A model generated the notes under the pieces. That model saw only the letters and a program-made list of their open reading frames with translations. It ran no database searches and was not told the DNA's origin. A stretch of 64,000 nucleotides of DNA. Source: Qipengyuania sp. HL-TH1. GTDB taxonomy: Bacteria; Pseudomonadota; Alphaproteobacteria; Sphingomonadales; Sphingomonadaceae. The DNA lies in NCBI RefSeq assembly GCF_036365825.1, contig NZ_CP142675.1, forward strand, positions 1 through 64,000. Direction: 5' to 3'. Positions 38,033 to 56,669 of the stretch are shown here, in pieces. How positions within the stretch are numbered: position 1 is the stretch's first letter; each line of letters begins with the position of its first letter. A program made the position numbers and the translations under genes.

Positions 38033-38068
38033 AGGCTATCGATATTATGAAAACCGTCAAGGGTAATA
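38033..38068 (-). promoter_or_regulatory. Operator-promoter, site 3: TATTA-N16-TAATA with overlapping -35
   Basis: TATTA (38043-38047) and TAATA (38064-38068) stand 16 bases apart. On the minus strand the spacer reads CCCTTGACGGTTTTCA; TTGACG (38060-38055) can act as -35 and TAGCCT (38038-38033), 16 bases on, as -10, pointing to the diiron desaturase gene. The downstream half-site lies between -35 and -10, so binding of a repressor would block RNA polymerase. The promoter calls are inference. Confidence 0.6.
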
Positions 38069-38103
38069 ACGGTCCTTTTTTGACATTTATGCGAAGCTGA
38101 AGG

Positions 38104-39867
38104 TCAGGTGCGAGCAATATAGGCGCGCCATCCGCCCAGCTCGGTGATATCTTCGGCTCCGCTGGTTGCACGGGGTTCGGCTACGAAGCCTTTGACATTG
38201 CTGCCATCTTCCAGCGTCACCGTGCCGATGGCGAGCGGAGCGGGCACTTCGGCGACGAAGCTGCCGAAGGCGGCCACGTCGAGTTCGTAGACCTCGACCG
38301 CGATCGCCGCACCATCCTCGCTATGGACCAGCGCGGGCTTTGGCGGTGTGCTGTCGGCCATCGCATAGAGCCGGTAGGCGGGGGCGGTGTCGAACGCACC
38401 GACGAATCGCGCATCGCGCGACGTCAGTTGCCAATGCAGCGGCATGTCCTTCAGATGTGCGCCGACGACGGCAAGCTTAACGGTTTCCATTCTTCCCTCC
38501 AGATCGAGCGCGGGTCTCGCGGGCAAGTCCGCCTTGGCGAGATAGCTTTCGGCAGCGTCCATAAGGCCGCTGTCGCTGCCTGCCGGACCTATCAGTGTGA
38601 TCCCGAAGCCGGTGCCATTGGCGCGCGCACCGGCCGGCACGGCGATCGCGGCCATGTCGAGCAGGTTCACGAAATTGGTATAAAGGCCCAGATTGCTGTT
38701 CAGCGCGACCGGCGCGGCTTCCAGTTCGGCCACGCGGTAGGTCGTGCCGGTGGTCGGGAAGGCGAGCATGTCGACGCTGGCCCACATCTCCTCGGCACCC
38801 CGTTGCAATTCCGCGAGGCGATAGATCCCGTTGAACAGTTCGACCGCCGAAATGTCGAGGCCCGGCGCCACCACTGCGCGGACGGTGGCGTCGATCGCCT
38901 CGGGGTTGGCGGCCAGCACCGGGGCCAGCGCCGCCGCGCGCTCGGCTACCCATGGGCCGCTGTAGAGCAGGCTCGCGGCTTCGTTGAGGAAGGCGATATC
39001 GAGCTCGCAGATCTCGGCATCGCGCCCCAGAGTTTGGAGCGCGCGGGAATAGAGCGCTTCCGACTGGCTGTCGCCGAACCAGCCTCGCTGGTCGGGACGG
39101 GGGACGCCGATGCGTTTGGGGGTCAATTCCCGAGTGGGCAAGGCGCGAGAATAGGCATCCTGCGGATCGAATCCCGCCATGATCTGGTCGACCAGCCGCG
39201 CTTCGGAGATGTCGTCGGTGAAGACGCTGATGCAGTCGAGCGTACGGCACGCAGGTACCAGCCCCGTGGTGCTCCAGCGTCCCTTGCTCGGCTTGTATCC
39301 CACCAAATGGTTGAAGGCTGCGGGCACCCGCCCCGATCCGGCAGTATCGGTACCCAGCGCAAAGGCCACGAGACCGGCCGCCACCGCGACTGCCGAACCC
39401 GAACTCGATCCCCCGCTCACATAGGCGAGATTGTAGGCGTTGCGCAGAATGCCATAGGGACTGCGTGTGCCAACCAGCCCGGTCGCGAACTGGTCGAGAT
39501 TGGTCTTGCCGACGCAGATCGCGCCAGCGTCGAGCAACCGCGCGACCGCCGGTGCGGTGGTGTCGGGGGTGTAGGAGAACGCCGGGCATCCCGCGGTTGT
39601 GTCGAAACCGGCGACATCGATATTGTCTTTCACGGCAAAGGGGACGCCCGCAAGCGGGAGCGTTTCTCCCTCGGCGATCCGCGCATCCACTGCGCGCGCG
39701 GCCTCTGCCACCCGTTCGGGCGAAGCGTGGCTGATCCAGACCTGCGGCTGGATTTCGTCATAGGCGTCGATCCGCGCCAGGGTCGCTTCGGCAATGTCGA
39801 GCGCGCTTGCCGTGCCGGTGTTGACCGCCGCGGCGATCGTTTGGACGCTCTGGCGTGCAAGGTCCAT
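38104..39867 (-). CDS. atzF: Allophanate hydrolase
   Basis: A 587-residue enzyme with an amidase-signature domain: Lys in FAVKDNIDVAG, serine in YVSGGSSSGSAVAVAAG, and nucleophile region DTAGSGRVPAAFN (Ser-cisSer-Lys triad). The C-terminal ~120 residues (KLAVVGAHLKDMPLHWQLT) form the extra domain typical of allophanate hydrolase. It splits allophanate into ammonia and CO2. Its ATG overlaps the stop of the carboxylase by one base (TGATG). It is the last gene of the minus-strand operon. Confidence 0.95.
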   Translation of the reverse strand: MDLARQSVQTIAAAVNTGTASALDIAEATLARIDAYDEIQPQVWISHASPERVAEAARAVDARIAEGETLPLAGVPFAVKDNIDVAGFDTTAGCPAFSYTPDTTAPAVARLLDAGAICVGKTNLDQFATGLVGTRSPYGILRNAYNLAYVSGGSSSGSAVAVAAGLVAFALGTDTAGSGRVPAAFNHLVGYKPSKGRWSTTGLVPACRTLDCISVFTDDISEARLVDQIMAGFDPQDAYSRALPTRELTPKRIGVPRPDQRGWFGDSQSEALYSRALQTLGRDAEICELDIAFLNEAASLLYSGPWVAERAAALAPVLAANPEAIDATVRAVVAPGLDISAVELFNGIYRLAELQRGAEEMWASVDMLAFPTTGTTYRVAELEAAPVALNSNLGLYTNFVNLLDMAAIAVPAGARANGTGFGITLIGPAGSDSGLMDAAESYLAKADLPARPALDLEGRMETVKLAVVGAHLKDMPLHWQLTSRDARFVGAFDTAPAYRLYAMADSTPPKPALVHSEDGAAIAVEVYELDVAAFGSFVAEVPAPLAIGTVTLEDGSNVKGFVAEPRATSGAEDITELGGWRAYIART

Positions 39868-42800
39868 CAACACCGCCTCGTCAGCGCCATGAGCGGCGCG
39901 CCCGGTTCGATCGGCTGGCGTTCCTCGATATACAGCGAGGAAATCGTCCCGGCCGCCGGGCTTTCCAGCGGACACTCCATCTTCATTGCTTCGATGACGG
40001 CCACGGTGTCCCCCTTTTCGACCTCGTCGCCCTCGGCGACGAGCAATTTCCAGATGTATCCGCCAAAGGGAGATTCGACGACTTCGGCGCCCTCCGGCAC
40101 GTCGACTGCCGGCGCATCCAGCGCGGCGCCGCCGATGTCGTCGGCCAGTTCGGAAAGGCGGTCGAATTCGCCGTTACGCTCCCATTCGCCCCGTTCGGCA
40201 TCGAATGCCGCCTGCCGGGTCTCCTCGAACGCGGCGATCGATTGCGCGTTTTCGTTCAGGAAAGCGCGGTAATCGGCCAGCCGGAATTCCGAATGCTCGA
40301 CCTCGATCGACCGCCGCCCGGCAGGGAAGTCCCGCCGCCATTCCTCGAGCTCTTCGGCCGAGACTTCGAAAAAGCGGATCTGGTCGAAGAAGCGCAGCAG
40401 CCACGGCTTGCCGTCCTTGAAGACGTCGGTCTGGCGATAGGTGTTCCACACCTGGATGGTGCGCCCGAACAGCTGGTAACCGCCCGGGCCTTCCATCCCG
40501 TAGATGCACATATAGGCGCCGCCGATCCCGACGACATTGGGCGGGGTCCAGGTGCGCGCGGGGTTGTATTTGGTCGTGACGAGCCGATGCCGCGGATCGA
40601 CGGGTGTTGCGACGGGCGCGCCCAGATAGACATCCCCCAGTCCCATCACCAGGTAGCTGGCATCGAACACGATATCCTGCACCGCATCGGCATCGGGTAA
40701 GCCGTTGATCCGGCGAATGAATTCGATGTTGTCGGGACACCAGGGCGCATCGTCGCGCACCGCCGCCATATATTTCTCGACGGTCGCAATGGTCGCGGGG
40801 TCGCGCCAGCTGAGCGGCAGGTGGACGATCCGCGAGGGAATGGCGAAATCCTCGAGATCGCCGAGTTCGTCCTCGCATTCCATCAGCGCTGCGAGGGCGG
40901 AGCGCTGGTCGAGCTGCTTGCCGTCGAAATGGAGCTGGAGCGAGCGGATGCCCGGGGTGATGTCGACCACCCCGCGGAGCCCTTTCGCCTCGAGCACGGT
41001 CATCAGCGCATGGACGCGGATACGCAATTCGAGGTCGAGCACGATCGCCCCGTATTCGACCAGGATATTGCGATCGCCCTGCTGCCGGTAGACGGTTCGC
41101 GGACGATGCCCCTCGGCGGGGATTTCGGCGAGGATCGGGCTGAGATCGGCCGGGGCGCGCGGCTCGCTGTCAGCCGGCACCCCGGTCGTTGCCCCGGCAA
41201 GGGGCGCGGACTGGTCGGCGGCTTGCGCTTCGGCGATATCCACGGGCTGGAAGCGCAGGCGGTTCCCCGGAGCCAGTTGGCCGATCTTCCAGCGATCTGC
41301 GGCGATCACCACGAAGGGGCAGACGAAACCGCCCAGCGAGGGGCCATCGGGGCCGAGGATGATCGGCATGTCGCCGGTGAAATCGACCGCACCGATGGCA
41401 TAGGGATTGTCATGGATGTTGGACGGATGAAGCCCCGCCTCGCCGCCATCCTTGCGGGCCCATTCGGGCTTGGGCCCGACCAGCCGGACGCCGGTGCGAT
41501 TGCTGTTGTAGTGCACCTGCCATTCGGCAGTGGTGATCGCTTGCACGTCGTCCGGGGTGAAGAAGTCGGGCGCGCCGTGCGGGCCGTATAGGACGCGCAA
41601 AGTCCAGCAATTGCCCAGCTCGGGTTCGGGACCCGCGGGCATGTCCGTGGTGGTGGCGTTACCGGCCAGATGCAGCGTGTCGCCAGCGAGCAGCCGCCGC
41701 GCCGCATGTCCGCCGAACTGCCCCAGTTCGAAGGTACTACGGCTGTCGAGATAGGGCGGGATATCCAGCCCGCCTGCAAACAGGATATAGCCGCGCATAC
41801 CCCCGCCCGAAACGCGGCCCAGTGCGAGCGTCTGTCCGGCCACGACATCGAGCGGCGTGTCGCGCGCCACCGGATTGCCATCGAGCCTGGCCCCGAAATC
41901 CGCCCCGGCAAGGCACAGGCGCGCGGGCGCATTGAAGCGCAGCGTCGGCCCGGTGAAGGTCACCTCGAGCCCCGCCGTGCCCTCAGGATTGCCCAGCCGC
42001 AGATTGCCCAGCCGGAACGAGCGGTCATCCATCGGCCCGGACGGCGGGACCCCGACCGACCATAGTCCTTCGCGCCCCGGCCAGTCCTGTACGGTAGTGG
42101 CAGTGCCGCCGGAGACGATCTGGAAGCTGCTGGGCGCATAGGGAATCGTATCGAGCAGGCGGGTCGTGACCGTGCCCGCGATGAAGGATTCGTCCTGCAC
42201 GACATCGCGCAGCCAGCGCAGGTTCGTCTCGATCCCGTCGATCCGGCTTTCGGCGAGCGCCGCCTGCATCGCGCCAATGGCGCCTTCGCGCGTGTCAGCA
42301 TGCGTGATCAGCTTGGCGATCATCGGATCGTACCATGCGCTGATCGTGGTGCCGGCTTCGCACCAGGTTTCCGCCCGAATGCTATCGGGGAACGACAGCG
42401 CCGACAGCGTGCCGGTGGTCGGGCGATAGTCGAGCGCCGGGTCCTCGGCATACAGTCGCACCTGGACCGCATGCCCACGGGCGGTCGGCGCAGCGCGATC
42501 CATGAAGGCGTAATCGCCCATGCCCCCACGCACCATCCATTCGACCAGATCGACGCCCATTACCTCTTCGGTCACCCCGTGTTCGACCTGCAGGCGGGTG
42601 TTCATTTCGAGGAAGAAGAACTCCTGCCGTTCGGCGTCGAAGAGGAATTCCACCGTCCCCGCCGAGCGATATTGTGCCGCCTGAGCGAGGTTGACCGCGG
42701 CCAGGATGAGGTCGCGGCGCAGCGCATCCGACAGGCAGGGGGCAGGGGCTTCCTCGACGACCTTCTGGTTGCGGCGCTGGAGCGAACAGTCGCGTTCGCC

Positions 42801-43472
42801 CAGCGGCATGACGTGGCCTGCGCCATCACCGAAAATCTGGACCTCGATATGCCGGGCCCGCGCGATGTAGCGTTCGAGGAACACGCCCGCATCGCCAAAA
42901 CTGCTCTCGCCCTGGCGTACCACGCCGGCAAAGCCGTCACGCAGTTCGGCCTCATCCGCGCAGATGCGCATCCCGATGCCGCCGCCCCCGGCGGTCGCCT
43001 TGAGAATGACCGGATAGCCGATGTCGGCAGCCGCGCGGGCGGCCTCGTCTTCCCCGGTCAGCAGGCCGGTACCGGGCGCCAGCGGCACGCCCTGTTCCTC
43101 GGCCAGAGCGCGGGCGCTGTGCTTGAGGCCGAAGGTGCGGATATGCTCGGGTCGCGGGCCGATGAAGACGATCCCCGCAGCCTCGCAGGCTTCGGCAAAT
43201 TCGGCATTCTCGGCGAGAAACCCGTAACCGGGGTGAATATAGCCTGCGCCCGCCTCCTTCGCCGCGGCGATGATCGCGGCGCTATCGAGGTAGCTTTCGG
43301 TTGCGGGGGGCGGCCCGATGCACACCGCACTGTCCGCCAGCGACACATGCAGCGAATCGGCATCGGCGTCGGAATAGACCGCGACCGAACGCAGACCCAT
43401 GGTCCGCAAGGTCCGGATAATCCTGGTGGCAATCGCTCCGCGGTTGGCGATCAATACCGTCGGCGTGCTCAT
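39867..43472 (-). CDS. uca: Urea/guanidine carboxylase (biotin-dependent), probably guanidine-specific
   Basis: A 1201-residue multidomain carboxylase. In order: biotin carboxylase (VLIANRGAIATRIIRTLRTM, ATAGGGGIGMRICADE, FLEMNTRLQVEHGVTEEVMG), the two KipA/KipI-like halves of the carboxyltransferase (TTVQDWPGREGLWSVGVPPS through YGMEGPGGYQLFGRTIQVWN) and a biotin-carrier domain with EAMKME at the C-terminus. The start at 43472 overlaps the UAAP2 stop in ATGA. Homologues called urea carboxylase that travel with UAAP1/UAAP2 carboxylate guanidine; this gene has both partners beside it. Urea activity cannot be excluded from sequence. Confidence 0.95.
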   Translation of the reverse strand: MSTPTVLIANRGAIATRIIRTLRTMGLRSVAVYSDADADSLHVSLADSAVCIGPPPATESYLDSAAIIAAAKEAGAGYIHPGYGFLAENAEFAEACEAAGIVFIGPRPEHIRTFGLKHSARALAEEQGVPLAPGTGLLTGEDEAARAAADIGYPVILKATAGGGGIGMRICADEAELRDGFAGVVRQGESSFGDAGVFLERYIARARHIEVQIFGDGAGHVMPLGERDCSLQRRNQKVVEEAPAPCLSDALRRDLILAAVNLAQAAQYRSAGTVEFLFDAERQEFFFLEMNTRLQVEHGVTEEVMGVDLVEWMVRGGMGDYAFMDRAAPTARGHAVQVRLYAEDPALDYRPTTGTLSALSFPDSIRAETWCEAGTTISAWYDPMIAKLITHADTREGAIGAMQAALAESRIDGIETNLRWLRDVVQDESFIAGTVTTRLLDTIPYAPSSFQIVSGGTATTVQDWPGREGLWSVGVPPSGPMDDRSFRLGNLRLGNPEGTAGLEVTFTGPTLRFNAPARLCLAGADFGARLDGNPVARDTPLDVVAGQTLALGRVSGGGMRGYILFAGGLDIPPYLDSRSTFELGQFGGHAARRLLAGDTLHLAGNATTTDMPAGPEPELGNCWTLRVLYGPHGAPDFFTPDDVQAITTAEWQVHYNSNRTGVRLVGPKPEWARKDGGEAGLHPSNIHDNPYAIGAVDFTGDMPIILGPDGPSLGGFVCPFVVIAADRWKIGQLAPGNRLRFQPVDIAEAQAADQSAPLAGATTGVPADSEPRAPADLSPILAEIPAEGHRPRTVYRQQGDRNILVEYGAIVLDLELRIRVHALMTVLEAKGLRGVVDITPGIRSLQLHFDGKQLDQRSALAALMECEDELGDLEDFAIPSRIVHLPLSWRDPATIATVEKYMAAVRDDAPWCPDNIEFIRRINGLPDADAVQDIVFDASYLVMGLGDVYLGAPVATPVDPRHRLVTTKYNPARTWTPPNVVGIGGAYMCIYGMEGPGGYQLFGRTIQVWNTYRQTDVFKDGKPWLLRFFDQIRFFEVSAEELEEWRRDFPAGRRSIEVEHSEFRLADYRAFLNENAQSIAAFEETRQAAFDAERGEWERNGEFDRLSELADDIGGAALDAPAVDVPEGAEVVESPFGGYIWKLLVAEGDEVEKGDTVAVIEAMKMECPLESPAAGTISSLYIEERQPIEPGAPLMALTRRC

Positions 43473-44104
43473 GCAGCGACGATCATCCGCACGGGGGTCG
43501 GGTTGAAGGCATTGCACGGGTTGTTGATCTGCGGGCAGTTCGACACCACCACGACCACATCCATATCCGCGCGCAGGTCGACCGTAAGGCCGGGCGCGGA
43601 AATGCCGTCGACAATGCCGAGCGACCCGTCTTCCTCTACGGGCACGTTCATGAAGAAGTTGATGTTGGGCACCATGTCGCGCTTGCCGCGCCCCTCGGAC
43701 AGATTGGCCTCGAGGAAGTTCTCGACGCAGGCGTGCTGCGCCTTGGTGTGGTGGCCATAACGCAGGGTATTGGATTCGCAGGAACACGCGCCGCCGATCG
43801 TGTCATGATAGGCGACCGAAGTGCCGGTGATGGTCATCATCGCGCGGCCTTCGTTCGAACGCAGGACGCTGCCCTGGCGCAGGAACAGGTTCCCCTGCGC
43901 GGCCACGGTGTCCTGCGAGCTATACCGTTCGGCATCGTCAGCATCCGCGTAGAGCAGGAAATCGACCGCCTGATTGCCTTCCACATCGATAATGCGGAGC
44001 GTCTGCCCTGCCGCGATGTGATGCAGCCACGGCGCCCGGGCAGGCACGATTTCGTCATGGACGACGGCACCGGGCAGGCCCCCTGTTGCGGGATCAGCGG
44101 TCAT
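43469..44104 (-). CDS. Urea-amidolyase-associated protein UAAP2 (carboxyguanidine deiminase subunit)
   Basis: A 211-residue protein of the UAAP2 family. Conserved blocks include QTLRIIDVEGNQAVDFLLYA, RYSSQDTVAAQGNLFLRQGS, SNEGRAMMTI and SCESNTLRYGHHTKAQHACVENF. UAAP1 and UAAP2 together form carboxyguanidine deiminase in characterised systems, releasing ammonia from carboxyguanidine to give allophanate. Cys and His residues in this last block are the probable metal or catalytic residues. The gene is coupled to the carboxylase by a four-base overlap. Confidence 0.92.
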   Translation of the reverse strand: MTADPATGGLPGAVVHDEIVPARAPWLHHIAAGQTLRIIDVEGNQAVDFLLYADADDAERYSSQDTVAAQGNLFLRQGSVLRSNEGRAMMTITGTSVAYHDTIGGACSCESNTLRYGHHTKAQHACVENFLEANLSEGRGKRDMVPNINFFMNVPVEEDGSLGIVDGISAPGLTVDLRADMDVVVVVSNCPQINNPCNAFNPTPVRMIVAA

Positions 44105-44124
44105 GCAGTCTGCGCCCTTCCTTG

Positions 44125-44949
44125 CTAGCGGCGGTAGTAGTCTTCGATATTTTCGAAGGCGCGCAGGCCCTCGGGCGTGGCACAGCGGATCGGGTCGTCC
44201 TGATCGGTCACGGGCCCGCGCCACGCGCTTATGCGCAGCGGCGAAACCTGCCAGTCGTCCCGCGGGTCGAGGACATGCGGGCAATTGGCCAGGACCACGA
44301 TCACATCCATTTCCGCGCGCAGCACGATTTCGCGCCCCGCCTCGAAGGGGCCTACCAGCGGCGTGATGGCCCCATCGGCCTCGATCCGCGTGCCCTTAAA
44401 CAGATTGACGCAAGGGTGGACATCACGGCGCTGCAGCCCGTGCTTGGCCGAGCCCAGCAGCAGCCGGTCGCGGCCATTGGGAAAGGCGCCGCTATTGCGG
44501 CCCTCGCCATATTTGGCTTCGTTGGTGGCGGCATTCGATGTGCCGCAGAAAACGTCATGCGTGGCGGCGCCATCTTCGAGGATGCTCATCATCACGCGGC
44601 CCATGTCGGACAGCAGCAGCTTGCCCGCGCCGAGATAGCCGTTCCACTGCACCTTGACCGTGTCGGCCACGTTCAGCCGTTCGGTCGGCATTTCGGCATT
44701 GTAGATGAGCATCGAGGCACAGGCGTCGCCGGCAAGATCGATCAGCCGGACCCGCGATCCGCGCGCCAGCCTGCGGGTAGCATACCCGCCCGGGGCGACG
44801 GTTTCCTCCCACAGGAGGTCGTCCGGCTCCACGCCTGCGGGAAGGTCTGGCGCAACCGGCGGCAGGACGGGCATCGCGTCGACCACCGTGCCGGCCATCG
44901 CGCGGGCGTGGTCGCGCGCTGCCAGCGGGTTTGCCAGCCCCTCCGTCAT
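44125..44949 (-). CDS. Urea-amidolyase-associated protein UAAP1 (carboxyguanidine deiminase subunit)
   Basis: A 274-residue homologue of UAAP2: LWEETVAPGGYATRRLARGS, RLIDLAGDACASMLIYNAEM, ERLNVADTVKVQW, with the conserved DRLLLGSAKHGLQRRDVHPC. It is the partner subunit of UAAP2 in carboxyguanidine deiminase. The N-terminus is about 30 residues longer than usual, so a later start (for example Met18) is possible. Its ATG overlaps the stop of the NikR-like gene by four bases, and UAAP2 begins 20 bases after its stop. Confidence 0.92.
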   Translation of the reverse strand: MTEGLANPLAARDHARAMAGTVVDAMPVLPPVAPDLPAGVEPDDLLWEETVAPGGYATRRLARGSRVRLIDLAGDACASMLIYNAEMPTERLNVADTVKVQWNGYLGAGKLLLSDMGRVMMSILEDGAATHDVFCGTSNAATNEAKYGEGRNSGAFPNGRDRLLLGSAKHGLQRRDVHPCVNLFKGTRIEADGAITPLVGPFEAGREIVLRAEMDVIVVLANCPHVLDPRDDWQVSPLRISAWRGPVTDQDDPIRCATPEGLRAFENIEDYYRR

Positions 44950-45455
44950 GCGGCCGCGGACTTTGGCGGCTTGGGCTTCTTGCCTGCACTGTTGTCGTTG
45001 GCGTCGGCTTCGCCCTGCTCATGCAGCGGCGGCAGCAGCGCGGTGGTGGTGACCAGTTGGAGCTGGTGAACCCCGCGAATCGAGCGCAGCGAATCGCACA
45101 GCGCCTCGAGCCGTACGGCGGGGCCTTGCACAAGCAGCACTTCGAGCGACTGGTCGTCCTCGAGGAAGACATGCTGCGAGGAGATGACTTCCTTCAGATA
45201 TTGCAATTGCGTCGTTGCGAGTTGCTGGCGGATGCTGCCGCGATCGCCGACATAGACAAGCGTGATCGTGCCCGCGAGCATCTCTTCGGGCCGGGTCTGC
45301 GCTTCGTGCTCGGCGAGGGCGTGCCGGATCAATTCGGCGATCAGCTGCGAGCGCGACGGCAGACCCCGTTCTTCCACCATCATGTCGAGCTGGCGGAACA
45401 GGTCCGCGGGCAGGCTCATGCTGAGGCGGGCAAGATTGGTGGGTTCGGATGCCAT
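44946..45455 (-). CDS. NikR-like ribbon-helix-helix regulator lacking nickel ligands
   Basis: A 169-residue protein. Residues 8-50 form a CopG/NikR ribbon-helix-helix (ARLSMSLPADLFRQLDMMVE, GLPSRSQLIAELIRHAL); residues 60-140 form a NikR-type ACT-like regulatory domain (GTITLVYVGDRG, SLEVLLVQGPAVRLEALCDS). In a gap-free alignment with E. coli NikR the nickel ligands His76, His87, His89 and Cys95 correspond to Leu84, His95, Phe97 and Ser103, so three of four are lost. It heads the operon UAAP1-UAAP2-carboxylase-atzF and has a NikR-spaced operator 18 bases before its ATG, so it is probably its autoregulator. It likely senses a non-metal signal. Confidence 0.88.
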   Translation of the reverse strand: MASEPTNLARLSMSLPADLFRQLDMMVEERGLPSRSQLIAELIRHALAEHEAQTRPEEMLAGTITLVYVGDRGSIRQQLATTQLQYLKEVISSQHVFLEDDQSLEVLLVQGPAVRLEALCDSLRSIRGVHQLQLVTTTALLPPLHEQGEADANDNSAGKKPKPPKSAAA

Positions 45456-45472
45456 GGGACGGTCCTCTCAAG

Positions 45473-45498
45473 TATTATCTATATTGTCAATCGTAATA
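45473..45498 (-). promoter_or_regulatory. Operator, site 1: TATTA-N16-TAATA upstream of the NikR-like gene
   Basis: TATTA (45473-45477) and TAATA (45494-45498), 16 bases apart; the dyad extends to AGTATTA and TAATACT, seven-base perfect arms. The minus-strand spacer is CGATTGACAATATAGA. It lies in the 57-base gap between the ATPase gene and the NikR-like gene. The hexamer versions GTATTA and TAATAC with 16 bases between equal the geometry of the E. coli NikR operator (GTATGA-N16-TCATAC). A clear -10 box is not seen here. Confidence 0.7.
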
Positions 45499-45512
45499 CT
45501 ACGATTTTTGTC

Positions 45513-46283
45513 TCATGCGGATTGGGTCAGGACTGCGCGGGTCTCCGCCCGCTGCGGTGCCTTCCGCGTGAGAGGAAGATCGTAGACGATGGAGGCACCA
45601 TACCGATTTGGGGCGTGCGGGTCATGCCGCAGCTTATCGAGCGTTAGCACGCGGTTGCCGAGCGCGAAGGCCTCGCCGATATCGTGCGTTACCATCATCA
45701 CGGTGAGCGCATATTCGCTCCACAGGCTGGTGATCAGTGCGTGCATATCGGACCGGATCCCGGGATCGAGCGCGCCAAAGGGTTCGTCGAGCAGCAATAT
45801 CCGCGGGCGTTTGATCAGCGCCTGAGCGATCGCCAAGCGTTGCTGCATGCCACCCGACATCTGCGCCGGATACAAATGAAGGCTGTCTTCCAGCCCGACC
45901 GCTGCCAGCATTTCTTCCGCTTCGGCCAGCGCAGCGCGCCGCGCCGCGCCGAACAGCCGCCCGGCCAGCGGGGCGCGCCCGCATTCGATCCCGAACAGCG
46001 TGTTCCCCAGGACCGTCAGATGCGGAAACACCGAATAGCGCTGGAACACCACGCCGCGATCGCTGTCGCATTGGGGCTTGAGCGGGACGCCGTCGAGCGT
46101 GATGGTCCCGCGCGTCGGCGCATCCTGCCCCAGTACCACGCGCAGCAGGCTGCTCTTGCCTGCACCCGATGGCCCGATGACCGAAACGAATGCGCCTTCC
46201 TCGATTTCGAGGTTGACGCGCTCGAGCACGATCTTGTCGCCATATTCGACCCAGACGTCGCGCAGGCTGAGGAAGCTGCTCAT
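45513..46283 (-). CDS. ABC transporter ATPase of the urea-carboxylase cluster
   Basis: A 256-residue ATPase of the nitrate/taurine (SsuB/TauB) class. Walker A GPSGAGKSS, Q-loop FQRYSVFPHLTVLG, signature MSGGMQQRLAIAQAL, Walker B ILLLDEPFGALDP, H-loop VTHDIGEAF. The start at 46283 overlaps the permease stop in ATGA. It drives import of the ligand bound by the lipoprotein at 47138-48223; guanidine or a related compound is inferred from the cluster. Confidence 0.95.
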   Translation of the reverse strand: MSSFLSLRDVWVEYGDKIVLERVNLEIEEGAFVSVIGPSGAGKSSLLRVVLGQDAPTRGTITLDGVPLKPQCDSDRGVVFQRYSVFPHLTVLGNTLFGIECGRAPLAGRLFGAARRAALAEAEEMLAAVGLEDSLHLYPAQMSGGMQQRLAIAQALIKRPRILLLDEPFGALDPGIRSDMHALITSLWSEYALTVMMVTHDIGEAFALGNRVLTLDKLRHDPHAPNRYGASIVYDLPLTRKAPQRAETRAVLTQSA

Positions 46284-47095
46284 CTCTCGGTCCTGTGTGC
46301 CCAGCCGAACAGGCGGCGGCTGGACCATGACAGCAGCAGGTCGGTGATCGCCGCGAGGATGGCGATCCACGCTACATAGGGCAGGATGACGTCCATCGCG
46401 AGATAGCGGCGAACGAGGAAGATGCGGTAGCCCAGCCCGATATCGGCGGCGATCGCTTCGGCCGAAATCAGGAATACCCATGCCGGACCCAGCGACAGGC
46501 GCACTGCCTGGATCAGCCTTGGCATGGCCTGCGGGAGGACGACGCGCAGCGCCAATTGCCATGTGCTTGCGCCCAGCGTCTGCGCCTTGATGATCTGCTC
46601 GCGCGGGAGCGCTGCCGTATGCGCGGCGATATCGCGGATCATGAAAGGCGCAATGCCGATCACGATAAGCGCCACCTTGGCGGTCTCACCCAGCCCGAAG
46701 GCGATGAACAAGATCGGCAGCAGCGCGATCGGCGGGATCACCGCAATCCCGGTGACCAGCATGCCGAAGGTGGCGCGAACGGGTGGCAGAAGCCCCAGAA
46801 CGAGGCCCACCAGCAGCGCGCTGGCGGTGGAAATGGCCAGTCCGAGACCGAGCCGCTGCAGGCTCGCCAGCGTATCGGCCCAGAAGAGATAGCGGCCCGA
46901 CAGCGGATCCCGCTCGAACACCAGCGCGCGCATGGCGTCCACCATCGCCCCGGGGAGCGGGAGGATCTTGTCGGCCGGGTTGATCTCGTTCCGCGCGACC
47001 GCGAGGAACAGATATACCAGGATCAGGAGCAGGATCGGGATCGCCCCTAGAAGCAGGGAATTGGTCCGCCCGATCCGGCGATCGACCCAGCGCAC
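46280..47095 (-). CDS. ABC transporter permease of the urea-carboxylase cluster
   Basis: A 271-residue inner-membrane permease of the BPD-transport (SsuC/TauC) family. Membrane helices include LLLGAIPILLLILVYLFL, LGLGLAISTASALLVGLVLG and IAVIPPIALLPILFIAFG; the coupling EAA loop is LGASTWQLALRVVLPQAMPR. GTG is the start codon, 42 bases after the binding-protein gene. It forms one transporter with the flanking ATPase and lipoprotein. Confidence 0.93.
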   Translation of the reverse strand: MRWVDRRIGRTNSLLLGAIPILLLILVYLFLAVARNEINPADKILPLPGAMVDAMRALVFERDPLSGRYLFWADTLASLQRLGLGLAISTASALLVGLVLGLLPPVRATFGMLVTGIAVIPPIALLPILFIAFGLGETAKVALIVIGIAPFMIRDIAAHTAALPREQIIKAQTLGASTWQLALRVVLPQAMPRLIQAVRLSLGPAWVFLISAEAIAADIGLGYRIFLVRRYLAMDVILPYVAWIAILAAITDLLLSWSSRRLFGWAHRTER

Positions 47096-47137
47096 TACGC
47101 GCCGATCCCCGGTCCGCTGCCCGTCCGCTTCACCGGC

Positions 47138-48223
47138 CTATAGCTCGCCATCGGCAGCCATCTGCATGAAGCTGTCGTCGAAGCGCAATGTGATGCTGTT
47201 GCCATCGCCCAAGGTCTTGCCGCCCGGGAAGGCCATTCCCACCGCTTCGGCCGAACTGGCACCCTGGCCGAACAGGCCCTGTGAGAAACTGAAGTCGCGG
47301 ACCCGGGTCATGGTTTCGATCAGCGCCGGATCGGTCGCCGCCGCAACCGCTTGCGCGGGCTCGACATAAAGATGGGTCGTCGCCACCTGCGCTTCGAACA
47401 TCTCCGGCGTCGTACCCGCAAGCTGCGCCATCGCTGCACGCGCCGCTTCGCCCGCTTCGTCGTCCTGCTGCATCAGCGCGATGGTCTCGTACCAGATGCC
47501 CACCAGTGCCTTGCCCAGATTCGGGTTGGCTTCGAGCGTGGCGGTATCGACCACCAGCAGGTCGAGGATTTCACCCGGAATGTCGGCCGAGCTGAAGACC
47601 TCATGCGCGCCCGCTTCCTGTTTCATCGTCAGGAGCTGCGGGTTCCACGCCACCGCGGCGGTGACATCGGGCGAGGTGAACGCACCGGCAATATCCGCAT
47701 CTGCGGTATTGATCGTCCGCACATCGGTCATCGCGAGGTCTGCCGATTCAAGCGCCCGGGCGAGCAGATAATGCGACACCGACAGCTCGACCAGATTGAC
47801 CTGCTGTCCGGCGATACCGGCGAGATTGTCGGTGCCTTTCAGCAAGACCCCGTCATTGCCATTCGAATAGTCGCCGATGATGAGGGCGGTGGTATCCTTC
47901 CCGCCGGCGGCGGGGATGGTCAGCGCATCCATGTTCGCGACCGTCACCCCGTCAAGCTGCCCGGCGGTGTATTGATTGACCGATTCGACGTAATCGTTGA
48001 CCTGCACGATATCGATTTCGATCCCGTATTTGTCCCCCCACTTCTTCACGATCCCGGCCTGTTCGGCATAGGGCCACGGCATCCACCCGGCATAGATCGA
48101 CCAGCCGATCGTGAACTGGGTCTTGGGCGCGGTGGCGTCTTCGCTTGCGGGCGCGCACGAGGCGACGAATAAGGCACAGGCCAGCGCTGCGGCTGCCCCC
48201 ACTTTGCGGATCCCGTTCAACAT
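47138..48223 (-). CDS. ABC transporter substrate-binding lipoprotein, urea-carboxylase type
   Basis: A 361-residue periplasmic binding lipoprotein of the NMT1/SsuA-like class. Signal and lipobox: LACALFVASC. Typical segments: FTIGWSIYAGWMPWPYAEQA, VQVNDYVESVNQYTAGQLD, VAWNPQLLTM. Homologues of this type occur next to urea/guanidine carboxylases. The ATG at 48223 has AAAGGAG upstream; the frame is open a further 19 codons. The first gene of the transporter trio; operator site 2 begins 62 bases upstream. Confidence 0.92.
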   Translation of the reverse strand: MLNGIRKVGAAAALACALFVASCAPASEDATAPKTQFTIGWSIYAGWMPWPYAEQAGIVKKWGDKYGIEIDIVQVNDYVESVNQYTAGQLDGVTVANMDALTIPAAGGKDTTALIIGDYSNGNDGVLLKGTDNLAGIAGQQVNLVELSVSHYLLARALESADLAMTDVRTINTADADIAGAFTSPDVTAAVAWNPQLLTMKQEAGAHEVFSSADIPGEILDLLVVDTATLEANPNLGKALVGIWYETIALMQQDDEAGEAARAAMAQLAGTTPEMFEAQVATTHLYVEPAQAVAAATDPALIETMTRVRDFSFSQGLFGQGASSAEAVGMAFPGGKTLGDGNSITLRFDDSFMQMAADGEL

Positions 48224-48285
48224 AGAGGTAACTCCTTTCGCATGTGCAGCATTGCGCCAAAAGAGCCCCCTGTCCATCACTTATT

Positions 48286-48321
48286 TATTACCATTGCCAT
48301 TGTTGGTAATAATCATATGGT
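48286..48321 (+). promoter_or_regulatory. Operator-promoter, site 2: TATTA-N16-TAATA between transporter and MBL genes
   Basis: TATTA (48286-48290) and TAATA (48307-48311) flank the 16-base spacer CCATTGCCATTGTTGG; the arms extend to TTATTACCA and TGGTAATAA. On the plus strand TTGCCA (48294-48299) and TATGGT (48316-48321) can be -35 and -10 of a promoter for the MBL genes. The same symmetrical site lies before the divergent transporter genes, so it may control both directions. Confidence 0.6.
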
Positions 48322-48435
48322 GTCGCTCCAGAGCGCGGGGGCGTAAGGCGACCGACGCGCGGAGGACCGCCTGGGAGGGCATGCATCGAAGGCAGCCAAT
48401 TGCCGCTGTACCGGCGGCTTTGCCCGGAGCGCCCG

Positions 48436-49524
48436 ATGTCGCAGACCACGCCTGCCCCCGCACCGACCCCGACCCCCGCCCCATCGGTCCAGCCGACCTT
48501 CGCGGGGAATGGCGATATCGCGGCGGCGTATAATCCGCCGGGAGTGCGCAACACCGATTCCGCGCTGCCGCTGCATCCCCGCGAACCGGTCGAGCATGAC
48601 TATTCGAGCAGCGGGCCGGCCCCCGGGCGGCTCGGCTTCCGCTGGATCTACGGATCGAATGTCGCGGCGAAGAACACCGATCCACGCATCCAGGTGGTGC
48701 AGTATAACGAAGACACTTTCGTCCTGCGGCAGAACGTCTGCGTCCATTGGGAAGCGCCGTTCGTCTACCTGCTGTTCGGCAATGCCGGAGCCTTGCTGAT
48801 CGACAGCGGGGCCACTGCGAAAGCGGCCTTTTTCCCGCTGCGCGAGACCGTCGATGCGATCATCACTCGCTGGGAGCAGATGCGCGGCCGCAAGCGCATG
48901 CCGCTGACCATCGCGCTGACATCGGGCGAAGACGTCGCGCAGAACCAGGGGCTGCGGCAATTCGCGGATCGCCCGCGAACCACCATCGTCCCCAGACCGA
49001 TCGGGGCGATGCAGGCGCATTACGGGCTTGCGGGCAACTGGCCGGGCGGAACCGGGGCAGTCGATCTCGGCGACAGGCGGATCGAGGTCATCCCCACCCC
49101 CGGGAGCCACCGTGACGGGGTGACCTTCTACGATCCCTATTGCGACTTGCTGTTCACGGGCGACCTGTTGTTCCCCGGACGGATCAACATCGGCAACGAC
49201 CGGGATTACATTGCGGCGCTGGCGCGGTTGCAGGAGTTCGCCGGACGCAATCCGGTCGAGGCGGTGCTCGGCGGGCACATCGACATGATGTTCGCGCCGG
49301 GCTGCTATTATCCCCGTTTCGCGACCTACAAACCCTATGAGCGCATCCTGCAGCTTTCGCCCGCCACGATCGACGAGGCCTCGCACTATGCGCGCGAGGT
49401 GCAGGGCCGCGACATGATGCTGATCCGCCCCGACTTCGTCCTTTTCAACGGAGTCAGTCCCGACCAGCGGACCCGGGTCTGGCCCGAAGGCGTCGCCCGC
49501 ATCACTCCGCCGCACCCCTTTTGA
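48436..49524 (+). CDS. Metallo-beta-lactamase-fold protein with degenerate zinc motif
   Basis: A 362-residue MBL-fold protein with a proline-rich N-terminus. Several family blocks are present: FVYLLFGNAGALLIDSG, TPGSHRDGVTFYD, LLFTGDLLFPGR and GGHID. At the place of the metal motif HxHxDH it has TSGEDVAQ, so a normal two-zinc site cannot form. It is similar over its length to the next protein (RWIYGSNVAAKNTDPRIQVV against RWICGSESLKDNTDPPVHVH), evidence of a tandem duplication. No signal peptide is evident at the chosen ATG. It may be a partner or regulator rather than a hydrolase. Confidence 0.85.
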   Translation: MSQTTPAPAPTPTPAPSVQPTFAGNGDIAAAYNPPGVRNTDSALPLHPREPVEHDYSSSGPAPGRLGFRWIYGSNVAAKNTDPRIQVVQYNEDTFVLRQNVCVHWEAPFVYLLFGNAGALLIDSGATAKAAFFPLRETVDAIITRWEQMRGRKRMPLTIALTSGEDVAQNQGLRQFADRPRTTIVPRPIGAMQAHYGLAGNWPGGTGAVDLGDRRIEVIPTPGSHRDGVTFYDPYCDLLFTGDLLFPGRINIGNDRDYIAALARLQEFAGRNPVEAVLGGHIDMMFAPGCYYPRFATYKPYERILQLSPATIDEASHYAREVQGRDMMLIRPDFVLFNGVSPDQRTRVWPEGVARITPPHPF

Positions 49525-49541
49525 CGACCGGGAGAACCGCT

Positions 49542-50549
49542 TTGGACCGTCGTACTTTCCTGTCGTACAATGCCGCAGCGCTGGCGGTTCCGGCTGCGCT
49601 GACAACCTATAGCCAGGCCGCGCAGGCCGCCGGGCTGCGGCCCGATCCGGTCGATTTCAAAAGCGACCTGCCTGCCCCGGGCAGTTTCCCCGACCGCTGG
49701 ATCTGCGGTTCGGAATCGCTCAAGGACAACACCGATCCGCCGGTGCATGTGCACTGGTACAATGCACACACGGCCATCCTTCGGCAGAACAAGGCCTACA
49801 GCTTCGAGGCGCCTTTTGCCCCGCTGTATTTCGGCAATGATCGCGTGCTGTTGCTCGACGAGGGCTTTACCCAGTTGCGCACCGACTGGGACCTGCGCGG
49901 CGTGGTCGACGAGTGCATCGCGGATTGGTGCAGGCGCAAGGGACGCGATCCTGCCGACCTCGAATTGCTCGTCGCCTTCAGCCACCTTCACGCCGATCAC
50001 TATGCCGCGGTCAACCAGTTCGCCGACCGGCCCAATACGCGCTACATGGGACTGACGCATGAGGAGATGCTCGGCTTCTGGGGGATGACCAACTTCCCCG
50101 AGGAACGCGTCACGCTCGATCTCGGCGGGCGCGATATCCTTATCTGGGGCTCGCCCGGCCATGTGGCGTCCGAATTCGCCTATTACGACAGCTACACGCA
50201 GATCCTCTACACCGGCGACATGTTCTATCGCGGGCGCTGCTACATCACCTTTTGGCAGCCCTGGTTCGACAGCATGACGCGGCTGATCGAATTCTGCGAC
50301 AACCATCCCGTGTCGCATGTCATGGGGTGTCACGTCGAAATCAGCAGGACGGGGGAGGATTACCCCTACGGTCTGACCTGGCAACCCGACGAGGCACCCG
50401 TGCAGATGACGGTGGATCAGCTTCGCGAAGCCTATGCCTATGCCCAGACAATCACTGAACCGGGCATCTATTTCACCGGCACGGTGTTTCTCTGCAACCA
50501 GACCCGCAGCCTCACCACCATCGACACCAATCCGTATCGCTACAGTTGA
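49542..50549 (+). CDS. Tat-exported metallo-beta-lactamase-fold hydrolase
   Basis: A 335-residue MBL-fold hydrolase with the complete metal motif HLHADH in AFSHLHADHYAAV, plus GSPGH, YTGDMFYRG and MGCHVE supplying later ligands. The start is TTG at 49542, which follows GGGAG by seven bases and gives the N-terminus DRRTFLSYNAAALAVPAALT, a Tat signal; an earlier TTG at 49521 overlaps the previous stop. It is a paralogue of the preceding gene, 17 bases away. The substrate is unknown; the location suggests a periplasmic hydrolase acting on a compound also handled by this cluster. Confidence 0.88.
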   Translation: MDRRTFLSYNAAALAVPAALTTYSQAAQAAGLRPDPVDFKSDLPAPGSFPDRWICGSESLKDNTDPPVHVHWYNAHTAILRQNKAYSFEAPFAPLYFGNDRVLLLDEGFTQLRTDWDLRGVVDECIADWCRRKGRDPADLELLVAFSHLHADHYAAVNQFADRPNTRYMGLTHEEMLGFWGMTNFPEERVTLDLGGRDILIWGSPGHVASEFAYYDSYTQILYTGDMFYRGRCYITFWQPWFDSMTRLIEFCDNHPVSHVMGCHVEISRTGEDYPYGLTWQPDEAPVQMTVDQLREAYAYAQTITEPGIYFTGTVFLCNQTRSLTTIDTNPYRYS

Positions 50550-50604
50550 CGCCGCTGCCGGGACGGCCCGGCACGCCCCACCTGCCATGCAAGGACCAAC
50601 GCCC

Positions 50605-51528
50605 ATGACCCGATCGATCTGCCTCCTGCCCCTCATTGCCGCGGCTTGCGCGCCTGCGGCCGAAATGAGCCCCGAGCCCGCATTCGCCGAGAATGTGATC
50701 GACGTCCCCGGCTTCGCCGATTTCCTCCAGGTTGATGGCGATACCGTATGGACCACCAATGACGGCCGGGTGGAACAGTGGTCGAAAACCGAGAAGCTGG
50801 CCTCGGTCGCGATCCCGCGCCCGTGCGGCACGATGGCGATGGAATCCGGATCGCTCTGGGTGGGCAATTGCGATGGGGGCGAGCTGTATCGCATCGGTCC
50901 CGAAACCGCGCAGGTGCTGGCTACCATACCGGCGGGCATCGGACCGAGCGGCGAACAGAACGTGGTCGCCGGCGCCGGGTCGGTATGGGCGCCCAACCAG
51001 GCGGAGGGGACGATCTCCCGCATCGATCCCGCGACCAATGAAATCTCCGCGTCGATCGAGGTGGCGCCGGGTACGACTTTCCTCGCCTTCGGGTTCGACG
51101 CGCTATGGGCGGTAAGCGGAACCGGGGGGACACTGCAGCGCGTGGACCCGGCTACCAACGCGGTCACCGACACGATCCAGCTGGGCGATACGCCCGGGTT
51201 CCTCGTCGCGGGTGAAGGGGCCGTCTGGGTGCAGGAGCAGGGCGACGGGACCGTCGCGCGGATCGACCCCGAAACGCGCGAAGTGGCGGGCCGTACCCTC
51301 GTCGGCGACAACCTCAAATGGGGCGATATCGACACGGGCGACGGGAAGGTGTGGCTGCGTACGACCGACGACCAGACCTTCGTCGTGATCGATGCGGCGA
51401 CCGCCGAAATCCTCGCCCGCGTCGGACGGGCGGAGGGCAGCGGCGCGCTGCGTTATACGCCCGACGGGATATGGACGAGCGCGCATGACGTCCACTCGCT
51501 GACCTGGTGGACCAGCGAAGCCCGGTGA
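50605..51528 (+). CDS. YncE/Vgb-like beta-propeller lipoprotein
   Basis: A 307-residue protein with signal MTRSICLLPLIAAAC and a cysteine suitable for lipidation. The rest is repeated propeller blades: AGAGSVWAPNQAEGTISRID, FGFDALWAVSGTGGTLQRVD and AGEGAVWVQEQGDGTVARID, each ending in (R)IDP or VDP. Similar proteins (YncE, virginiamycin B lyase-like) bind or scavenge small molecules. The AAGGAC site lies nine bases before the ATG. It follows the MBL gene by 55 bases and ends the plus-strand run. Confidence 0.85.
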   Translation: MTRSICLLPLIAAACAPAAEMSPEPAFAENVIDVPGFADFLQVDGDTVWTTNDGRVEQWSKTEKLASVAIPRPCGTMAMESGSLWVGNCDGGELYRIGPETAQVLATIPAGIGPSGEQNVVAGAGSVWAPNQAEGTISRIDPATNEISASIEVAPGTTFLAFGFDALWAVSGTGGTLQRVDPATNAVTDTIQLGDTPGFLVAGEGAVWVQEQGDGTVARIDPETREVAGRTLVGDNLKWGDIDTGDGKVWLRTTDDQTFVVIDAATAEILARVGRAEGSGALRYTPDGIWTSAHDVHSLTWWTSEAR

Positions 51529-52254
51529 CGGCGCGGAATCGATTCGGGGCAGCCGCACCGCGCACGCCGCGAGGCTGCGAAGGGGACGATATGACGCAGC
51601 ATCCACAGGGTTCGCGTGACTTGCCGAACCCTGTGAAAATCGTGTGAATTCAGTTCTAAATGCCAGGCTCGCGGTGCTGTTCGGGCGATCAATTAATACT
51701 CTTGACGCATTCCGTAATATCTCTAGCGTATGTGTCATGCCGTCGTAAGCAACGGCAACGCTTGGGAAGGGGATCTGCAGGATTGAGCCGGCTATCGGCT
51801 CGATATGGAGATTGTCTATGGACCGAACATCGGGAGCCGGGACCTTCGCGAAGAGCAAGCGCTCTGCCGTCCGCGCTGCCGGTCCGGCCGCCTCCCTATC
51901 TTCGAAACCTGCACATGATTTCTCGCGGCGCGCACACGTGCGCTCGTTGCGGTCCCGTCGATACGGAGCCGCACAACACCCCTCTCCATATGAAAACACC
52001 GCGTTCTCATCCCCTCAATCGAGAACGAAGAACAATCGCAGGCGGGGCAATTCGGATAAATCCGAACAACCGAAGAAAAAGCAAGCGGGATCGTGCGAAT
52101 AGGCGGGTTGGTTTCGCCGTGTCGATAAGGTGAATGCCTGAAGTCCGAATAACGGAGCACAGGCGCACCTCAGGTCCTCAAGTAAAGCTGGGTCGGCTGC
52201 GACATGCGTGTCGCGGCCCGGGGAAGCTCAACCGCAAAAGACGGGAAGAAAACG
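51529..52254. other. Long leader region upstream of the TonB receptor
   Basis: About 725 bases without a supported gene. It holds site 4 (51694-51729), 525 bases before the receptor, and a perfect inverted repeat, TTCGGAT-AA-ATCCGAA (52051-52066). Short open frames here have no family signature. A promoter at site 4 would give a long untranslated leader. Confidence 0.5.
51694..51729 (+). promoter_or_regulatory. Operator-promoter, site 4: TAATA-N16-TAATA upstream of the TonB receptor
   Basis: TAATA (51694-51698) and TAATA (51715-51719), 16 bases apart, with spacer CTCTTGACGCATTCCG. TTGACG (51702-51707) could be -35 and TAGCGT (51724-51729) -10, 16 bases later. The left arm differs from the other sites by one base (TAATA in place of TATTA), so it is a weaker match. 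The spacer nucleotides C and TTGAC sit in the same register as in sites 1 and 3. Confidence 0.5.
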
Positions 52255-56302: not shown

Positions 56303-56339
56303 CGCCGCGGTCCTCGCGCGGTGGCCTGCTGTGTGGTGC

Positions 56340-56669
56340 CTACTGGCTCGCAGCGAGCCGGGTGGCCGTGTCCTGCAGCGCGACGCGCGTTTCGATCCGT
56401 TCGCGAATGCGGGCGAGGACTTCGGTACGGCACTCCTGCGAACGCGCATGCGCGCGCAAATGCAGGGTGTCGAGGCCGTCGCCGCATACCGCGCGCGCGG
56501 CATCGTTCATCCGAATGGCCAGGCGGCGCTGCCCGTCGACAGTCGCGAGATCGAGCCCGCCAAGGTGCAGCGTCGCGCTGTCCTGCACGAAGGGGTCGGA
56601 AGGGGTGGTTTCCGCCATGGCCGGCGCCGCAAGCGCGCACGCAGCCAGGGCCATCAGGCCAGCTTTCAT
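56340..56669 (-). CDS. UrcA-family small secreted protein
   Basis: A 109-residue exported protein. The signal MKAGLMALAACALAAPAMAE is followed by LHLGGLDLATVDGQRRLAIR and ARAVCGDGLDTL, the UrcA pattern with two cysteines that probably form a disulphide. AGGAG lies nine bases before this ATG; an ATG two codons upstream is less well placed. The family is of unknown function and common in sphingomonads. Confidence 0.88.
   Translation of the reverse strand: MKAGLMALAACALAAPAMAETTPSDPFVQDSATLHLGGLDLATVDGQRRLAIRMNDAARAVCGDGLDTLHLRAHARSQECRTEVLARIRERIETRVALQDTATRLAASQ

Follow-up and report, generated by a model that had tools for sequence, protein, structure and literature searches.

What does a regulator of the NikR type do at the head of a gene cluster for the breakdown of guanidine? 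The question is raised by the first 64,000 nucleotides of contig NZ_CP142675.1 of Qipengyuania sp. HL-TH1, an alphaproteobacterium of the Sphingomonadaceae; this whole stretch is called the window below. In it, a gene for a NikR-like protein (44946-45455, minus strand) stands directly before guanidine genes, and four copies of one operator-like inverted repeat lie around the cluster. An original prediction, made from the letters of the window alone, held that the NikR-like protein controls all four sites, and this is strongly supported by the phyletic coupling, the conserved operators and the contact-residue variants described here. We propose that the protein is a nickel-blind NikR-type repressor of guanidine genes, that it is released by guanidine or by a compound of the pathway, and that the four sites are its predicted operators; we give this reading a probability of roughly 0.7. 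Within it, the regulon and the predicted binding site are strongly supported by sequence comparison, while binding, ligand and sign of control are what we infer.

Direct pattern scanning finds the four sites, all of them intergenic, at the coordinates originally given, with TATTA-N16-TAATA at sites 1 to 3 and TAATA-N16-TAATA at site 4:

38043-38068, minus strand: operator site 1, TATTACCCTTGACGGTTTTCATAATA (minus), 200 bases upstream of the ATG of the FA-hydroxylase gene; promoter boxes on the minus strand, -35 TTGACG at 38060-38055 and -10 TAGCCT at 38038-38033
45473-45498, minus strand: operator site 2, TATTACGATTGACAATATAGATAATA (minus), 18 bases upstream of the regulator ATG; a -35-like TTGACA on the minus strand and no TAnnnT -10 box
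48286-48311, plus strand: operator site 3, TATTACCATTGCCATTGTTGGTAATA, between the divergent ABC-transporter and metallo-beta-lactamase-fold (MBL) genes; promoter boxes on the plus strand, -35 TTGCCA at 48294-48299 and -10 TATGGT at 48316-48321
51694-51719, plus strand: operator site 4, TAATACTCTTGACGCATTCCGTAATA, 485 bases upstream of the open reading frame (ORF) of a TonB-dependent receptor; promoter boxes on the plus strand, -35 TTGACG at 51702-51707 and -10 TAGCGT at 51724-51729

In the whole genome (3,325,063 bases) TAWTA-N16-TAWTA occurs at these four places only, inside 13.7 kb; about 0.38 occurrences are expected genome-wide from the base composition of the window, the backwards-read control pattern is found at 2 places, and the pattern never arose in 100 dinucleotide shuffles of the window. 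The motif is thus not common in the genome, and the early judgement that chance could hardly produce such a recurrence was right. The conserved letters reach beyond the ten bases first named, and on the sequence comparisons below the predicted full operator is better written TATTAC-N14-GTAATA. As had been noticed, the spacer opens with C and carries TTG(A/C)C at spacer positions 4-8 in all four sites, but the strand labels of sites 2 and 3 have to be exchanged: in this orientation, sites 1 and 2 are minus-strand sites and sites 3 and 4 plus-strand sites. A -35 box followed 16 bases on by TA-N3-T, originally claimed for sites 2, 3 and 4, exists at sites 3 and 4, is missing its second box at site 2, and is found at site 1 as well.

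The pattern accompanies the regulator well beyond this genome. A search with the regulator protein found 214 relatives, of which the best 80 were kept (1,282,485 bases of loci); 79 of the 80 loci bear record titles of what we take to be Sphingomonadales genera or groups and one (L061) is filed as Poribacteria, and in L006 (Qipengyuania citrea) the regulator protein is identical to that of the window. The operator pattern has 239 forward matches in these loci, and every locus has between one and five; an A/T-swapped control has 3 matches. Scored against TATTAC-N14-GTAATA, 139 matches agree at 12 of 12 positions, 101 at 11 and 4 at 10, compared with 0, 1 and 19 for a control with reversed arms. 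The motif is therefore present in the orthologous clusters, where its absence would have spoken against a shared operator. The regulator gene lies directly before UAAP1, within 700 bases, in 80/80 loci, and an operator stands at most 120 bases upstream of the regulator in 59/80 and before the ABC operon that runs into the regulator in the other 21/80. As a separate observation, the contig of L061, filed as Candidatus Poribacteria, carries a Sphingomonadales-like cluster, which is probably a binning error.

The regulator and the genes that follow it were identified as follows:

44946-45455, minus strand: NikR-like regulator of the ribbon-helix-helix type (RHH_1 + NikR_C), 169 amino acids, in which the nickel ligand set is incomplete
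44125-44949, minus strand: UAAP1, a DUF1989 protein (a carboxyguanidine deiminase subunit); TIGR03425 306.7 bits, cut-off 205.95
43469-44062 (matched stretch; ORF 43469-44284, exact start unsettled), minus strand: UAAP2, second DUF1989 protein
39867-43460, minus strand: guanidine carboxylase (annotated urea carboxylase); TIGR02712 1749.8 bits, cut-off 1303.85; the ORF extends to 43787 and the family match begins at 43460
38104-39975 (ORF; true start probably inside), minus strand: allophanate hydrolase; TIGR02713 738.8 bits, cut-off 511.05

In an alignment, the carboxylase of the window has Asp at the equivalent of position 1330 of K. lactis urea carboxylase, where the latter has Asn, and keeps Asp at the equivalent of position 1584. 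Among the relatives, Asp occupies the first position in 78/78 covered loci and the second in 77/77; of the 80 loci, L009 and L064 are uncovered at both positions and L044 at the 1584 equivalent only. Asp at these two positions is given as the signature of guanidine carboxylase in the accessible parts of two papers (PMC11410670, PMC12186494), the first of which also assigns the two carboxyguanidine deiminase subunits to the DUF1989 family, and two DUF1989 subunits and an allophanate hydrolase stand beside the carboxylase in the window and its relatives. Because the carboxylase has the published Asp signature, this is, by sequence, a guanidine and not a urea cluster. Regulator and carboxylase are, moreover, strictly coupled: among 196 genomes from the order, the regulator is present in 13, the very 13 that have a carboxylase over the TIGR02712 cut-off (weaker TIGR02712 matches occur in all 196; those listed span the biotin-carboxylase part, approximately the first 440 positions). 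In the family of the window, TATTAY-N14-RTAATA is found in 12/12 genomes with the regulator versus 9/101 without it, five of these nine also showing control matches; in f8, a different family of the order, pattern and control are about equally frequent.

A NikR fold could suggest an ordinary nickel-responsive NikR that ties the cluster to nickel supply. The domains are indeed those of NikR, in line with the name NikR-like in the original prediction: RHH (PF01402) and NikR_C (PF08753, E 2.3e-19) are both over their cut-offs, the best PDB match is the archaeal NikR 2bj1 (E 2.6e-25), and the operator geometry is as in the NikR sites described in the available portions of PMC545781 and PMC7055735. 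The identity that the name implies does not follow, as the residues are not those of a nickel sensor and the protein stays below all five NikR cut-offs listed in NCBIfam (PRK04460, 100.1 vs 105; TIGR02793, 58.4 vs 175.45; and three others). The nickel ligands of E. coli NikR are His76, His87, His89 and Cys95 (PMC7055735, as far as its text was available). Mapped by alignment with 2bj1 and counted over 80/80 loci, the equivalent positions hold a residue that is never His (position 84), His95, Phe97 and, at the Cys position, Ser103, the last three in 80/80, so that three of the four ligands are lost throughout and only the His87 equivalent is kept, while Glu99, Asp101 and Glu105 are invariant in 80/80. 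A second regulator copy exists in 21/80 loci (among them L012, L016, L022, L023, L025 and L037), with Val at position 97 in 15/21 and Phe in 6/21. Seven distant NikRs (L205-L211), by contrast, retain the Cys and the HxH pair (HLH in L205). A 29-row tree splits the regulators that lack the ligand set (19 of clade A, to which we assign the window's protein, and 3 of clade B) from these seven NikRs at 99/96. Clade A is united at 100/100; the tree does not establish clade B as a single group, and it carries a program warning about long branches. The surroundings agree with the residues. The carboxylase route is biotin-dependent, urease over its cut-off was found in 0/14 clade-A regulator genomes, and no nickel transporter or nickel enzyme was recognised in the cluster, nickel genes other than urease not having been searched genome-wide. 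All 4 genomic places of the operator pattern lie at the guanidine cluster, which speaks against control of nickel genes through it. By its residues, then, the regulator is not a nickel sensor; nickel regulation, considered and rejected on the grounds of the lost ligands, the guanidine context and the absence of urease from the 14 regulator genomes, appears hardly credible.

If the sites are bound by the regulator, their letters may be expected to change with the residues that read them. Three strand residues of E. coli NikR, Arg3, Thr5 and Thr7, make contact with DNA. Arg10, Ser12 and Ser14 of the regulator, which we take to be their equivalents, are invariant in the 80/80 loci, whose operator is TATTAC. 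Further relatives, distinguished here by the residue at the variable contact position, follow suit. With Ser, G756 has TATTAC-N14-GTAATA just upstream of the regulator; with Gly in both copies, G054, of another family (L143, L144), has CGTGTTAC-N14-GTAACACG before the regulator, with the arm TGTTAC, and L144 additionally one 11/12 TATTAC-N13 match away from the regulator. Clade B consists of three relatives that are 41-45% identical and lie outside the order, two within the class (G475, G804) and one in another class (G795). With Ser, G795 has a perfect TATTAC-N14-GTAATA upstream of an ABC operon and G475 a copy with one mismatch between regulator and ABC operon; with Thr, G804 (L204) has GTATGAC-N14-GTCATAC between the regulator and a creatininase gene, with the arm TATGAC. 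Six of the seven distant NikRs have Thr, and in the stretches read four of these (L207, L208, L210, L211) show a match resembling GTATGA-N15-TCATAC at 11 or 12 of 12 positions; none was found for L206 and L209 (Thr) or L205 (Ser). That the operator letters follow the contact residue is a consistent trend and not a statistic, because there are few cases with Gly (two copies from a single genome) or Thr (a single clade-B genome).

Promoter geometry bears on the sign of control and on two other explanations of the sites. Of the sites in the 80 relatives, 238 have enough flank, and 194 of these carry TTG at spacer positions 4-6 in at least one orientation, which gives 197 oriented sites (3 sites are counted both ways, and the 44/238 without TTG either way are left out). 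TAnnnT lies exactly 16 bases past the -35 box in 124/197 oriented sites; no other distance examined gave more than 3. The -35 box lies inside the operator, the right arm of which falls between -35 and -10. An operator over the -35 box and the spacer to the -10 box is in a position that normally blocks polymerase. With the -10 at a fixed distance, this is therefore the place of a repressor, and repression is the sign of control to which the predicted geometry points. The same geometry could be taken to mean that the sites are conserved AT-rich promoter elements for RNA polymerase or for another factor, with arms that flank the -35 box and a -10 box set at one distance; but the pattern is absent elsewhere in the genome, its inverted-repeat arms reach beyond the promoter hexamers, its letters differ according to the contact residue that the regulator at each locus has, and in the family of the window it goes with the regulator in the proportions given above, all of which makes this explanation very improbable. 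Activation, alone or together with repression, has a precedent in H. pylori NikR, which can activate targets according to the part of PMC9860126 at hand, and site 2 is without a visible -10 box. An activator would, however, be oddly placed over the -35 box and the -35/-10 spacer, and we regard this reading as improbable too.

In most other Alphaproteobacteria that have these genes, the corresponding place is held by RNA. Of 289 genomes in a sample of the class, 16 have UAAP1 over its cut-off; two of them (G000, G019) have a clade-A regulator. Among the remaining 14, a guanidine-I riboswitch is present in 12 and a guanidine-II riboswitch in G475, and G281 has neither, so that 13/14 have one. 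In the clade-A genomes, guanidine-I (RF00442) was found in 0/13, with the first 95 candidates scored in the larger genomes, and guanidine-II (RF01068) in 0/14, with the first 138 scored; for G756, class I was looked for in its 20-kb locus and not genome-wide. Rfam scans of the window (30-60 kb), of 9/80 loci and of L143, L144 and L202 gave no guanidine riboswitch, the presence of class IV in the library being unchecked. A hidden guanidine riboswitch in the window or the regulator genomes, sought by the Rfam scan and by the genome-wide search for classes I and II, was thus not found. In G475 the guanidine-II riboswitch (L145:16530-16579) precedes the guanidine genes, next to an operon with the NikR-type operator. 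On these distributions, the regulator appears to take the place that guanidine riboswitches hold in other Alphaproteobacteria.

How would such a switch work? The four sites would be operators of the NikR-like protein 44946-45455, which, by analogy with NikR, may be a tetramer whose two ribbon-helix-helix heads sit on the two arms of TATTAC-N14-GTAATA. The bound protein should block RNA polymerase, because the operator covers -35 and the right arm lies between -35 and -10. The repressed set would comprise the guanidine carboxylase, the carboxyguanidine deiminase, the allophanate hydrolase, the ABC transporter, the diiron hydroxylase, the two MBL proteins with a propeller protein, the TonB receptor and the regulator itself. 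As long as no inducer is present, the operators would be held and the operons shut; guanidine, or a compound made from guanidine, would bring release. The inducer, guanidine or another compound of the breakdown pathway, might bind in the former metal site, where His95, Phe97, Glu99, Asp101 and Ser103 are candidate residues of a guanidinium pocket, and it is most likely not nickel, because three of the four nickel ligands are lost. When E. coli NikR binds nickel, it holds its operator more strongly. Control of a catabolic operon has to work the other way round, and loss of the metal site may for this reason have left a form that binds DNA by default. The TonB receptor, the hydroxylase and the MBL genes may serve to free guanidine from larger compounds, in analogy to the Vreelandella dioxygenase discussed below.

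The genes behind the remaining operators are the following:

36854-37843, minus strand: FA_hydroxylase-superfamily (diiron type) protein; PF04116, and only 69.8 bits for the OlsE model (cut-off 475)
45513-46562 (ORF; true start probably inside), minus strand: ABC transporter ATPase
46280-47095, minus strand: ABC transporter permease
47138-48223, minus strand: binding protein of a urea-carboxylase-linked ABC transporter; TIGR03427 524.7 bits, cut-off 333.9; a start at the ATG at 48223 is more likely than at the GTG at 48280
48436-49524 (ORF from 48400), plus strand: metallo-beta-lactamase-fold protein 1 (MBL1)
49521-50549, plus strand: metallo-beta-lactamase-fold protein 2 (MBL2)
50434-51528 (ORF; true start probably inside), plus strand: beta-propeller repeat protein
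51818-52102, plus strand: open frame with a start region that can be aligned with the beginning of a second FA-hydroxylase gene found in relatives
52204-54657 (ORF), plus strand: TonB-dependent receptor; PF00593 and PF07715, no receptor model reaching its cut-off; a later Met at codon 18 suits a signal peptide better

From right to left, the plus strand thus carries the TonB receptor and then the propeller protein, MBL2 and MBL1, and the minus strand the ABC binding protein, permease and ATPase, the regulator, UAAP1, UAAP2, the carboxylase, the allophanate hydrolase and the FA_hydroxylase-superfamily protein. The regulon first proposed (desaturase, catabolic operon, transporter plus MBL genes, TonB receptor) holds with refinements at two sites. 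A counterpart of site 1 stands upstream of the orthologous FA-hydroxylase gene in relatives. Site 3 is divergent, with the ABC transporter on one side and the MBL genes on the other. Site 4 is followed by the TonB receptor in the window, after the 485 bases mentioned; in 8 close relatives (L007, L010, L011, L017, L028, L029, L031, L051) its counterpart is followed by a second hydroxylase gene, the product of which is 40-43% identical to the first and which is missing in the window, L006 and L008. The frame 51818-52102 is probably a relic of this gene, to judge from its start in an alignment of nine sequences; as a whole it is conserved only in L006. Beside the TonB receptor, a TPR-sulfotransferase gene (54737-56503) adjoins in the window and likewise in a number of relatives.

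These additional genes give rise to the rival view that the protein is a nickel-blind repressor with a larger guanidino or other nitrogen compound as inducer, taken up and processed via the TonB receptor, the hydroxylase and the MBL proteins, so that guanidine breakdown is only the last step. The operator is found at the TonB receptor, FA hydroxylase and MBL genes in many loci; the clade-B relatives (L145, L203, L204), whose regulators keep both His of HxH with Thr for Cys and no His at the first ligand position, go with creatininase-family and glutamine-synthetase genes (and in 2/3 with an ABC transporter); and in Vreelandella a riboswitch-controlled guanidine operon includes a methylguanidine-hydroxylating dioxygenase, as described in the accessible part of PMC12508155. 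Clade B thereby suggests that nickel-free NikRs form a wider family linked to organic nitrogen. The constant partner of the regulator is nevertheless guanidine carboxylation: in the two clusters of G054 it stands with UAAP1, UAAP2, carboxylase and allophanate hydrolase, and in G756 with the same pathway genes and an ABC transporter, and in the 18-20 kb read for these genomes no orthologues of hydroxylase, MBL or propeller genes were detectable and the only TonB-receptor match was weak (22%, L143). Across clade A, the gene neighbourhood always includes the guanidine pathway, and the TonB receptor, hydroxylase and MBL genes appear to be additions in the relatives of the window. We hold the larger inducer to be unlikely, if well short of negligible.

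The preferred reading, a nickel-blind repressor released by guanidine or a pathway compound, has to be weighed against several further observations. With operators counted at 10/12 or better from -500 to +60 of a target gene, the binding-protein gene has one in 79/79 testable loci, but other suspected targets have one in part of the loci only: MBL1 in 42/61, FA hydroxylase in 46/59, TonB receptor in 24/69 and the propeller gene in 5/55. These lower counts mix orthologues with paralogues (MBL1 and hydroxylase matches of 35-44% identity) and with operon-internal genes, because of which not every miss is a lost site. The presence of genes for a TonB receptor, MBL proteins and a hydroxylase hints at a natural substrate that may be larger than guanidine. 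Site 2, the regulator's own, is without a clear -10 box in the window, so that the promoter of the regulator may be controlled differently. G281, with a borderline UAAP1 match, has neither the regulator nor a riboswitch of class I or II that was found, and the genome-wide riboswitch searches scored only the first 95 and 138 candidates in larger genomes, although the positives were found under the same limits. Finally, the wider family does not sense guanidine by default, because clade B goes with creatininase and glutamine-synthetase genes and the guanidine genes of G475 use a guanidine-II riboswitch. A more far-reaching version of the preferred reading would see in the protein a guanidine-sensing transcription factor made from NikR, with the nickel site turned into a guanidinium pocket, which replaces riboswitches, governs a larger set of genes (TonB receptor, diiron hydroxylase, MBL pair) by which bigger guanidino compounds are taken up and guanidine is freed from them oxidatively, and belongs to a nickel-free NikR family that senses organic nitrogen; we put this forward tentatively, at a little under even odds.

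In the open PubMed Central literature, no paper was found that links NikR or CopG proteins to guanidine or urea carboxylase, and the part of a 2025 review that was available names guanidine-binding transcription factors as a possible future discovery (PMC12186494). The regulator offers a small, concrete and testable candidate for a guanidine-sensing protein, with four known predicted operators and many orthologues. The near-clean swap of the regulator against riboswitches adds to its interest, and the case illustrates how a protein that senses metal may be converted to sense something different. It also follows that proteins named 'CopG family nickel-responsive transcriptional regulator' in databases, several of the relatives among them, need not be nickel sensors.

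The closest known systems are the NikR proteins of E. coli, archaea and delta-proteobacteria, which have the same RHH and NikR_C domains and bind inverted-repeat operators of 26-28 bp with a spacing of about 14-16 bases, as the operator of the window has. As reported in the accessible text, the delta-proteobacterial NikR consensus is GTGTTAC-[N13/14]-GTAACAC (PMC545781), which equals the variant at L143/L144, and the E. coli operator GTATGA-N16-TCATAC (PMC7055735), which equals the variant at L204. Unlike these proteins, the regulator of the window has lost three of four nickel ligands and precedes guanidine carboxylation genes. Guanidine riboswitches, of which four classes are known, control the same kind of guanidine carboxylase genes, through RNA there and through a predicted protein switch here. 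All components of the guanidine carboxylase pathway described in the available part of PMC11410670 are present, including a carboxylase with the diagnostic Asp residues; unlike in that pathway as known, a TonB receptor, a diiron hydroxylase, an MBL pair and a propeller protein stand behind the same predicted operator. The methylguanidine demethylation operon of Vreelandella, in the portion of PMC12508155 that was accessible, likewise combines a hydroxylase gene with those of the guanidine carboxylase pathway. The Vreelandella enzyme is a riboswitch-controlled 2-oxoglutarate dioxygenase, whereas the window has a member of the FA_hydroxylase superfamily behind a predicted protein operator.

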